In this document: piece after piece, positions 8,473 through 52,785 of the stretch
Position numbering within the stretch: the first letter of the stretch is position 1
How the letters are laid out: every line of letters begins with the position of its first letter
DNA from: Mesostigma viride
Taxonomy: Eukaryota; Streptophyta; Mesostigmatophyceae; Mesostigmatales; Mesostigmataceae
Length of the DNA stretch: 64,000 nt
Direction of reading: 5' to 3'
NCBI GenBank assembly: GCA_009746045.1
Contig: RPFO01000579.1
Location: forward strand, 1,214,076-1,278,075
The notes under the pieces: generated by a model
Told to the model about the DNA's origin: nothing
Database searches by the model: none
What the model saw: only the letters and a program-made list of their open reading frames with translations
Translations under genes and position numbers: made by a program

Positions 8473-11400
8473 TCACCGCTTGGGTTTGGCGACCGATTTG
8501 TGCTCCTGCAGCCGCCGCAAGAAGTCCCTCTCCTTGGCCGTGATAGGTTTCTCGTCCAGGGTGCCTGCGCGCATGGTTACCAGGGGGGCGGGGGGGGGGG
8601 GGGGGGGGGGGGCACATACGCCGCCGGGGAAGGCGGGGGGCCCACGTGCGCGGCCGGAAGGGCTTGAGTTGAAATGTTTAACAGACACCACCGTGCCATG
8701 GGAACCCACACCACCGTTACATAACTGTGTTGCAGGGACAGCGACATTTGCTATAAGCTGCAGGGTAATGGATGCTATCACGCATCGTGCGCGGCCGTTT
8801 GGGCTGATCCGCTAAGCGGTAAGTTACCCCCAAATTGCTTGATCACGTACTACCGTGATGAGTGCTAACAAGGGTGATGAATGACCACAGTGAATGAAAC
8901 GAGGTCCTGTGCTGGTGGCGCACATGCACTCTACACGTCTCGCGACGCAGAGGACACATGGTCCCTCGTATCGCCGTCCTGCATTTGTCACTACTGGCAT
9001 CCTTATTGTCATGCTTTGTCACTACTGGCATCCTTATTGTCATGCTTTGTCACTACTGGCATCCTTATTGTCCTGCTTTGTCACTACTGGCATCCTTAAT
9101 GTCATGCTTGTCACTACTGGCATCCTTATTGTCATGCTTTGTCACCACTGGCATCCTTATTGTCATGCTTTGCTGTGTGATCTCATGCACCCCAGCACGT
9201 CACGCGACCGGATGATCACGAGATGCCTACGCTGCTGCTATCTACCATGCCCACAAGCGGCACTATCCCTATCAACTGCGGCTATCTACCATGCCCACAA
9301 GCGGCACTATCCCTATCAACTGCCGCTATCTACCATGCCCACAAGCGGCACTATCCCTATCAACTGCCGCTATCTACCATGCCCACAAGCGGCACTATCC
9401 CTATCAACTGCGGCTATCTACCATGCCCACAAGCGGCACTATCCCTATCAACTGCCGCTATCTACCATGCCCACAAGCGGCACTATCCCTATCACAAGTA
9501 CATCCTGATCATTATAATAGTAGCATACAACATAATTTTGGTAGTACACACGCACCGAGCACGTCGCGCGAGGCGATGATGACGTGGTCCCTGTACTTGG
9601 CCGCTTTCGTGACTGGGTTGCCGCGCAGGTCGAGCACGTTCAGGCGGGAGCAGCAGGAAAGGATGCTCTCCACGCCCTGCGGTTGTGTAGTTAGTAAGAC
9701 ACACATACAGAGGGATTGTAGTATATGTTTGGGTACAAAACATAAGCAAGAACGTTCTCCACGCCCTGTGGTTGTATTGTTAATCAGACACATTGTAGTA
9801 TACAAATAAGGACAAAAGGCTAACCCCAACATTAGCAGCAGCAGGACAAGTGTGCATATAGTTAACAGGACATTTGCATATTAATTTAGAAATAGGGATC
9901 GAAATCAAACCCAAATATTGGAATGATCTCCGTGCCCAGTGACTTGTGCATAGAGAATCGCTAAGAAAAAATAATTGTCTGTATCATTTATTGCATCATT
10001 GTGAAAGGCAGCAGCAGGAGAGCCTCCTCTCAGACACACTTTAGAGCAAACGAACCTCTCATACCCATTTCTCTCCATGGTCAGTATAACCTTGTGTGAT
10101 CCATGACCCATCTAACGTTTGGATCCAATACTCGTGCGGCGCTGCAAACTCTCCGGTGACGTGCGCGACCATAGTGCAGATTGTTACAGTGAGGTCACTG
10201 TAGCCATTTACCTCCATGTCCTCGATGAGGTTATGCGACACGTCCAGCGATTGAAGGCTCTGCAGGGACCCCAGGGGCCGGATGTCGGCGATCCGGTTGT
10301 TGCTGGCGTTGAGCACACAGAGGGACGTCTGCGAGCACACAGGCGATATTGAGATATCGGCGCCAGGTGTCAAAAGGCTAGCAAAGTGAAGACAGCGACA
10401 GGTGTCATAGAGATAGCAGACGGGAGATGTTAGGTGTCAAAATGATGGCGGAAAGGACAGCGTAGCGGAAAGAAAAGGATGACGCGAGGTGCAAACAGGG
10501 AAGGGGTGGGATGGTGCCAGGTCATCCAAAGAAAAGGTTAGTAGAAAGCACACAGCAATGCGGGCAAGTCACAGAAGCAGCACAGCAGCAAGAGCGAAAT
10601 GGCGCCAGGTATCCGCTGAACAGGATACAGGCAGCGACAAAGCAACAAAGGCAACTGGCGTGTGGGTCAGGAACTCTTTGCCTTCAATGCAGAAGAGGAA
10701 TTAACTGTAGAGGCAATCACAAAACTATCCTTTCCAGCAACTAAGCCTTTCTTTTCGTCCCGCTGACAAAATTCAGCAAGGAGAGGACGGTATTTGGGGT
10801 TTAGCTGCACATATGCAGCTCGTGGTTTTGTGCACCCCGAGTAGGTGGCAGCTGACACCTGCAGGCTGTCGCCTAGAATGCATTAAAAACCATAAGCCCC
10901 TTCTCAGGGATATGCGTAACATATGCTCCCCACGGAGGTATGTTCTTAATTAATGCGGCCCGCGAAGACAATTGCGTGCGCAATCCCCAGGGTGAGTTTG
11001 ATGTCTATGTTCTACTGTAGTAAGTACGTAGTATACCTATGGTTCACATACTGATTGGTTGATATTTGGTTGATACTCGATCATCATGAACGTTTCGATT
11101 ACTACTCCATCGTCACTCGTATACTGCTCGGCGACCAGGTTGCTACTTAAGTGCCTTTTATAGCGAAACTCTAACTGCGTGTAAAGGATCAAGGAAGCCT
11201 CACAAGGAGACCTACCCCGATCGCAGCCATGCAGTTGTCGTCGAATGCCAGCTGCTCATTTGGCTTCAACTTTTGCCCCGATATGTGCAGCTCCTGCTCA
11301 TGTGTACAATGGTGGGGAGAATGGAGGGTAGATGTGGTAATGGTAAAGAGTCGATTCAATGGCGATGGCAAGGAAACAGCCCTATGTGCAGCTCCTACGC

Positions 11401-52200: not shown

Positions 52201-52785
52201 TTTAGTCAGTAGTAATACAACATTTGTGTGTGTGTGTGTGTGGTGCCCACAACTAGCAGCTGCTGAAAGTACGGTACTCTGTACGAATGCTTGAAGCTGG
52301 TAGCGTTTCTGCCTTAGTTTACTAGCTTAGTTTTTGCAATATGACTGCGCCCGAGAAGCAGCCGCTGGTTTATGCATTGTTGAACAAATACTGTAGCAAG
52401 TCATCATTGAACAATTCATTGCGAAGTCCTAGCAATGATCCTAGCGCCCAAGAGGCAGCGGCTCAGGTGCGTGTCATTCATAATTTTTCTTTGGTGTGTG
52501 GTATTAACTTGATTCATGGGCCCACGCCTCTTTCTCTGAATCGTCTTTGGTTTGCAGGTGTTTAACGTGAAAGAAGGATGGGAGCCGCTATGCAAGTTCC
52601 TCCAAGTTCCCGTCCCAGATGTACCCTTTCCATGCTTGAACGACCGTGCGGAGTTCAAGGCACGGTTCATGTCAAAGCCCAAGCCAGGCGACACGAAGCC
52701 CACGCTGGTCTATGTGGGCATAGGGCTTGCTGCCGTAATGATGGCCGCTGGGCTTGCCCGCCTGGCAGTTACACGGAGCTCCTGA
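49208..52785 (+). CDS. P-loop sulfotransferase-family protein, tail-anchored, copy 2
   Basis: Exons 49208-49404, 50882-51104, 51840-51971 and 52558-52785 join in frame to 259 aa plus TGA. Exons 1-3 have exactly the same lengths (197, 223, 132 nt) as in copy 1. The N-terminus carries the canonical P-loop VIGAGFGRTGTLSLKGAL, then GFGPCYHMMEV, VILTVRDSAEKWYQS and WDKKIVFDRKFHTK, with LLVFNVKEGWEPLCKFL near the end. The C-terminus ends in a predicted membrane span (VYVGIGLAAVMMAAGLARLA) and a short polar tail. Members of this family have a sulfotransferase fold with unproven substrates. The two paralogs are about 11 kb apart, with retroelements between them. All introns are GT-AG. Confidence 0.87.
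50785..50870 (+). repeat. decayed copy of the exon 2 acceptor junction, copy 2 gene
   Basis: ATGCAGCGCCCCTGATGGAC resembles the true exon 2 start (GTGCAGCGCCCCTGACGGCC, exon from 50882). The stretch continues to TTCTACCGGATGTCACACAC and corresponds to 34883-34965 in the paralog. Confidence 0.75.
51180..51415 (+). repeat. copies of the exon 2 donor junction, copy 2 gene
   Basis: Three diverged copies of the exon 2 end (CTCCAAGTTCCAGCAGATGG then TCCAC and GTGAGC, ending 51104): TTTGCAACAGCTGATGGTCC with CACGTGAAG at about 51180, GCCAAATTGCAGCAGATAGT with CCGTGTGAGT at about 51287, and TCAAGTTCCAAAAGATGGTC at about 51387. Confidence 0.75.
52025..52275 (+). repeat. copies of the exon 3 donor junction, copy 2 gene
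   Basis: CGTGGTGCCCGCAGAGCAGC at about 52029 repeats exon 3 positions 51949-51968. CAGCTGCTGATGGGTGCTTC with TTGTTTAGTCAGTAGTAATA downstream (52160-52215) repeats the junction and the following intron. A third remnant, GTGGTGCCCACAACTAGCAG, lies at about 52240. Confidence 0.8.

Follow-up and report, generated by a model that had tools for sequence, protein, structure and literature searches.

In Mesostigma viride, roughly one in three of the exon edges that were examined recurs in the adjoining intron as a worn copy that includes the splice signal. In total, 48 junction-crossing copies were found, direct-oriented, local to their own gene and including the splice signals. The best explanation, to which we give a probability of roughly 0.8, is frequent short tandem duplication that is purged within exons and tolerated in introns and across junctions. 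Intron lengthening is usually ascribed to transposons, and here a second route is directly readable. Exon edges are recognisable, and an intronic copy of one therefore records a small duplication together with its orientation, which makes intron growth by duplication countable.

Sequences and Alignment Test

The window is the whole stretch of 64,000 nucleotides that was analysed, positions 1214076-1278075 of its contig in a 440-Mb assembly of 2243 contigs. It contributed three genes. Gene A lies on the minus strand; its exons A2 and A3 give a weak HEAT match below the curated cut-off, while its downstream exons A6-A13 encode leucine-rich repeats (LRR_4, E = 1e-30) and splice into a continuous protein. 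Following the first-pass annotation, the HEAT-like and leucine-rich parts were assumed to form a single gene. The other two are Sulfotransfer_4 genes of four exons on the plus strand, S1 (32856 to ~38026) and S2 (49208-52785; PF17784, E = 1e-61). Five further sequences were fetched from elsewhere in the genome, namely a third sulfotransferase, S3 (L020), and four chaperonin gene pieces, and none was inspected for junction copies beforehand. The chaperonin pieces were located with PF00118, which has 58 exon matches in the genome, and we take L040, L042, L043 and L044 to be CCT8-, CCT7-, CCT3- and CCT2-like, respectively. L040 was chosen because its gene also occurs on a second, allele-like contig (L041); the other three were chosen for having several exons within a short stretch. 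The sample thus comprises eight genes or gene pieces with 35 introns and 70 junctions, and donors were set to GT in all gene models.

For each junction, a query of 40 exon and 25 intron bases was aligned locally against the adjacent 600 bp of intron, and the best score was compared with dinucleotide shuffles of the target stretch (200 in the window run). The 600-bp target was left unclipped at the far end of two shorter introns in the window run and was clipped in later runs.

Junction Copies and Controls

Of the 31 junctions tested in the window, 16 are matched within the neighbouring 600 bp at p ≤ 0.05 (14/31 at p ≤ 0.01), and all 16 alignments span the junction. Over all genes, 23 of 70 junctions match the adjacent intron at p ≤ 0.01, and 22 of these matches cross the splice site; the single exception, the donor of S3 exon 1, aligns through its intron part only. 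The first-pass annotation had described copies that cross the splice site at most junctions. The copies and their crossing are borne out, but "most" overstates a frequency of 23/70. Donors matched at 16/35 and acceptors at 7/35 (p = 0.04).

Junction matches were far commoner than matches of exon-interior segments (9/292 at p ≤ 0.01; Fisher p ~1e-11 against 23/70), and the idea thereby survives the refuting condition that the first-pass annotation had set for it, equal frequency in exon interiors. The comparison with mismatched exon-intron pairs that the first-pass annotation had proposed was run on the eight gene pieces and gave 18/1050, against 23/70 for true pairs. Across four parameter sets the true pairs ranged from 21 to 28 of 70 and the mismatched pairs from 18 to 29 of 1050 (1.7-2.8%). 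Direct targets matched at 27/70 and inverted ones at 5/70, and the far end of the same intron served as a matching target in 3/32 cases. Intron-interior segments have a local copy at a level of the same order as junctions (79/317, 25%, at p ≤ 0.01), and junctions as the exclusive target of duplication were accordingly rejected. Donors still exceed intron interiors (16/35 vs 79/317, odds ratio 2.5, p = 0.015).

The pattern recurs in subsets and other runs. The chaperonin set by itself gave 8/36 junctions (donors 7/18, acceptors 1/18), with 2/176 exon-interior and 26/148 intron-interior segments; for donors against intron interiors within this set, p = 0.055. An earlier run that lacked the CCT2-like L044 gave donors 16/29, acceptors 8/29 and exon interiors 6/234, and with arrays excluded 19/159 intron-interior segments at p ≤ 0.01. 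In the first small run, on window genes, a score of at least 36 was reached by 11/28 junctions, 3/83 exon-interior and 20/66 intron-interior segments. Borderline junctions change status from run to run. Random genomic stretches were also sampled, and among their non-array 65-mers 5/318 scored at least 36 and 10/318 reached p ≤ 0.01, against 19/159 for non-array intron interior. This control is not relied on because, among its 19 stretches of unspecified content, three read N, another is 60% N and one (L037) is 95% tandem array. N runs occur in L028, L031, L032, L033 and L038, and fill L031, L033 and L038 nearly or wholly.

Copies at Individual Exons

In gene A, all on the minus strand, the weakly HEAT-like exon A2 (20601..20747) is copied at both edges (scores of 60 at the donor and 41 at the acceptor, each with p = 0.005), with donor copies carrying the copied +1 G near 20524 and 20426 and an acceptor copy near 20881. 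The leucine-rich exon A6 (16259..16414) has donor copies with the copied +1 near 16135, 16023 and 15771 (score 57, p = 0.005). Exon A7 (15131..15241) is again copied at both edges (donor 51, acceptor 48, both p = 0.005), with donor copies including +1 near 15065, 15007, 14949 and 14893 and an acceptor copy near 15448. Exon A12 (9556..9676) has an acceptor copy at ~9766 and donor copies with +1 at ~9190 and ~8929 (scores 54 and 43, p = 0.005). At exon A10 (11216..11293) the acceptor-side match is short: 12 bases of exon and 2 of intron, at a distance of about 89 bp upstream from the acceptor (score 28; p = 0.015 in one run and 0.005 in another). The donor of exon A4 (18030) has a decayed copy ~0.5 kb inside the intron (score 32, p = 0.002).

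The first-pass annotation had named its cases in the leucine-rich gene by exon number, with no coordinates. If its numbers from 7 on are taken as ours plus one, which is a guess, both edges of A2, the A6 donor, both edges of A7, the A10 acceptor (p = 0.015) and the A12 acceptor all hold, whereas under our own numbering both edges of A8 and the acceptors of A11 and A13 are negative. For its exon 4, whose acceptor was not located, the donor copy was recovered. Further cases beyond its list are both edges of A9 (13590..13650, minus strand; acceptor copy ~13726, donor copy ~13458; scores 29 and 30, p = 0.005 and 0.010), the A12 donor and, weakly, the A3 donor (p = 0.035).

The five sulfotransferase cases, on the plus strand, were all recovered at p = 0.005. 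Exon 2 of S1 (35016..35238) has acceptor copies at ~34888 and ~34655 and donor copies with +1 at ~35323 and ~35453. The end of this exon with its donor, 35190-35247, is 96.6% identical over 58 bp to 35274-35331, 84 bp away, and this copy looks young. It is not a clean abutting duplication, because an unmatched 26-bp spacer separates copy and source. Exon 2 of S2 (50882..51104; scores 38 and 58) has an acceptor copy at ~50788 and donor copies with +1 at ~51202, ~51312 and ~51408, and S2 exon 3 (51840..51971) has donor copies with +1 at ~52055 and ~52170 (score 57). An additional match to the edge of S2 exon 3 lies near 52.24 kb.

S1 (34885-35016) and S2 (50787-50882) share an acceptor copy upstream of exon 2, and the sequences between copy and exon in the two genes look alignable by eye, with no intron-intron match at E ≤ 1e-5; this duplication may therefore predate the S1/S2 gene duplication. 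S1, S2 and S3 have an identical four-exon layout and differ in intron lengths alone (S1 1963, 1190 and 1361 bp; S2 1477, 735 and 586 bp; S3 1197, 354 and 511 bp). No significant junction-crossing copy was found at the six junctions of S3, and its combination of absent copies and introns shorter than those of S1 and S2 is an anecdote from one family.

Properties of the Copies

The copies range from 66 to 98% identity, each different, and reach 58 bp in length. The decay with distance described in the first-pass annotation was not recovered: the Spearman coefficient is 0.06 over 55 copies, and the nearest copy is the best in only 7 of 15 multi-copy junctions. A conveyor-belt order of copies was rejected on the same data. 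The splice dinucleotide is kept in 41 of 47 junction-crossing copies (GT in 34/39 donor, AG in 7/8 acceptor copies), a count for which the middle of an alignment is biased toward matches, and purging of GT or AG from copies was therefore not seen. As most copies keep the dinucleotide, the introns hold potential decoy splice sites with exon context. They offer natural material for the study of splice-site choice, namely several near-identical donors, each preceded by the right exon context, among which splicing presumably uses the first one alone. Copy offsets show no in-frame bias (12/38 at 0 mod 3, with the CCT3 array excluded). Better conservation of the exon halves was considered and dropped, with hardly any difference between exon (81%) and intron (79%) halves.

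Of 33,629 intron bases, 2,072 (6.2%) lie in junction-crossing copies and 18.9% in TRF tandem arrays. The earlier suggestion that introns here lengthen by repeated junction duplications stands insofar as these are recurrent and found in unrelated genes. At 6.2% of intron sequence, junction copies are one contributor to intron length and not its main or exclusive source.

The further suggestion that minisatellites may be the homogenised end state of such duplications found one instance. It lies in the CCT3-like gene, where nine 48-bp copies (L043 4013-4468), all with GT, follow the donor at L043 4012. Each unit joins roughly 27 bases from the end of the exon to the intron start, and the array begins directly after the junction. 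On contig C1702 this array lies near 1286.01-1286.47 kb; 48 bp is divisible by three, and a 298-residue open frame runs over the exon that precedes the array.

Among other coding borders, start codons gave 0/3 and stop codons 1/3, with the S1 stop left out and the S3 stop placed one base off. The positive case is S2, where a tandem array of period 20 and 3.1 copies (52775..52835, plus strand) contains the stop codon and its flank (score 37, p = 0.002). Since this border has no splice site, coding/non-coding borders can be duplicated in this way even where no splicing takes place.

Allele-Like Contigs and Simulation

Between the CCT8-like piece L040 (contig C887) and its counterpart L041 (C1641), 89 of 4,813 aligned bases are mismatched (98.2% identical); the alignment covers ~4.8 kb out of 8.7 and 9.3 kb, and the two are alleles or a recent duplication. 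Besides a transposon-like insertion, three indels measure at least 15 bp: tandem units of 18 and 43 bp, and a piece of 20 bp that has a 7-bp repeat at its flanks. Four more, of 6-10 bp, were left unclassed. The resulting rate is ~0.02-0.03 small tandem changes per substitution, based on three unpolarised indels. The 3.1-kb insertion in L041 is bordered by a short repeat, and inspection by eye shows a gag-like frame with a zinc knuckle in it; with this transposon-like difference, transposons also lengthen introns in this genome.

In a simulation, random tandem duplications were rejected only if wholly exonic, and matches were called with one fixed threshold and no per-query shuffles. At rates of 0.02 and 0.03, the match fractions were 0.27 and 0.45 for donors, 0.34 and 0.40 for acceptors, and 0.31 and 0.36 for intron interior, against observed fractions of 0.46, 0.20 and 0.25. 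Exon-interior matches were overpredicted (0.08-0.19 vs 0.03 observed). Because a neutral simulation at about the observed rate gives similar levels, the overall copy level needs no junction targeting.

Proposed Mechanism and Alternatives

Under the preferred explanation, slips in copying or repair would produce short tandem duplications, each some tens of bases long, anywhere along genes. Those inside an exon would be removed by selection, and those inside an intron would be harmless. A duplication across a 5' junction would leave the original exon end with its donor in first place and put the copy into the intron; with a duplication across a 3' junction, the copy would sit upstream of the last acceptor, which would still be used. 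Exon-edge copies with splice sites would accumulate in introns and decay, and further rounds may yield a minisatellite. We infer the neutrality and the mutational step, as well as the use of the first donor and last acceptor, to which protein continuity in the gene models points.

Several results count against this explanation or exceed it. The donor excess over intron interior and acceptors is more than the simple model requires. Exon halves that are scarcely better kept than intron halves are unexpected under a conserved template, and the lack of significant junction-crossing copies in S3 also counts against it. So do the overpredicted exon-interior matches in the simulation, the 26-bp spacer beside the youngest copy (the S1 exon 2 donor) and the small basis of the duplication rate, three indels. 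The donor excess is most simply read as selection against acceptors newly arising upstream, and more boldly as the work of a donor-targeted process.

Such a process, acting at the 5' splice junction, would preferentially duplicate exon-intron boundaries and make introns grow from the donor end; transcription-linked breaks, RNA-DNA hybrids at intron starts and template switching are candidate sources. It would account for donors exceeding both intron interiors (p = 0.015) and acceptors (p = 0.04), and for the CCT3 donor array beginning right after the junction. We consider it improbable, since the excess is about twofold on 35 donors and has p = 0.055 in the chaperonin set, intron interiors are also heavily duplicated, the S2 stop-codon boundary behaves alike with no splice site, and acceptors may instead be depleted through selection against upstream AG sites. 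Mobile elements could also leave exon-edge copies, through introner-like insertions or target-site duplications from repeated insertion near junctions, and the 3.1-kb insertion in L041 does place a transposon in an intron. Even so, this source is very unlikely: the 35 introns of the eight gene pieces have no mutual similarity at E ≤ 1e-5, and the copies carry their own gene's intron sequence and reach 58 bp, against duplications of 3-9 bp described for some introners (PMC9860276). Least credible of all are chance matches of any exon edge to a repeat-rich intron, or assembly artefacts. Although arrays make up 18.9% of intron bases, the rates for mismatched pairs (1.7-2.8%), inverted targets (7%) and exon interiors (3%) are far below the 30-40% of true pairs, and copies of 66-98% identity, each different, are unlike the products of misassembly.

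A more speculative idea, which we hold to be rather doubtful, is that intron growth in this lineage works as a one-way ratchet with the 5' splice site as its anchor. Donors would retain crossing duplications more often than acceptors do, because the first donor would be chosen during transcription while a new upstream acceptor would be used. Near-perfect decoy 5' splice sites would then come to fill the introns, in the extreme as exon-in-frame arrays such as that with the 48-bp CCT3 unit, and if this were true, decoy donors could feed alternative exon ends into evolution.

Relation to Known Systems

Tandem duplication across an intron-exon boundary has been described in a potato RdRp gene as a single event making a new intron (PMC4974935), and novel introns in Drosophila have been attributed to duplication within coding sequence (PMC2891723). 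The present copies resemble tandem-duplication intron evolution of the Rogers type in being local direct duplications with splice signals (27/70 direct vs 5/70 inverted), and the potato case in that the duplicated piece itself spans the boundary (PMC4974935). In those two reports the outcome is a new intron and the cases are single genes (PMC4974935; PMC2891723), whereas here existing introns are lengthened, at about a third of the junctions examined and often several times per junction. No new intron that relatives lack was found among S1, S2 and S3, which are one family with the same four-exon layout.

Introners, which copy themselves into many genes and create new introns (PMC9860276), are alike in changing intron content across many genes. 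The copies described here are gene-specific, and introners were rejected, with no sequence common to the 35 introns at E ≤ 1e-5.

A human interferon-induced gene (6-16/IFI6) reportedly contains a splice-donor minisatellite. The CCT3-like gene alone is similar in having array units that each carry a 5' splice site; its unit includes ~27 bases of the adjoining exon end, and, unlike the interferon-gene minisatellite, its array is one among many less regular cases across genes.

Among the matches listed in the open-licence literature on splice-site duplication, intron gain, and intron length and tandem repeats, widespread junction copies were not found in titles and the beginnings of abstracts. 

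Other Repeats in the Window

The window also contains long simple arrays, namely (TG)n followed by (GA)n at 24489-25469 (~980 bp), (GGGTT)n at 28844-29616 (773 bp), and (CACC)n at 46236-46567 and (TCCC)n at 36603-36951, each over 300 bp. Several LINE-like element copies occupy 52900-63700, one with an 864-residue frame (RVT_1, E = 7.5e-25). Within this region, at 59630-60122, a 249-bp end is repeated twice, with inverted matches alongside.
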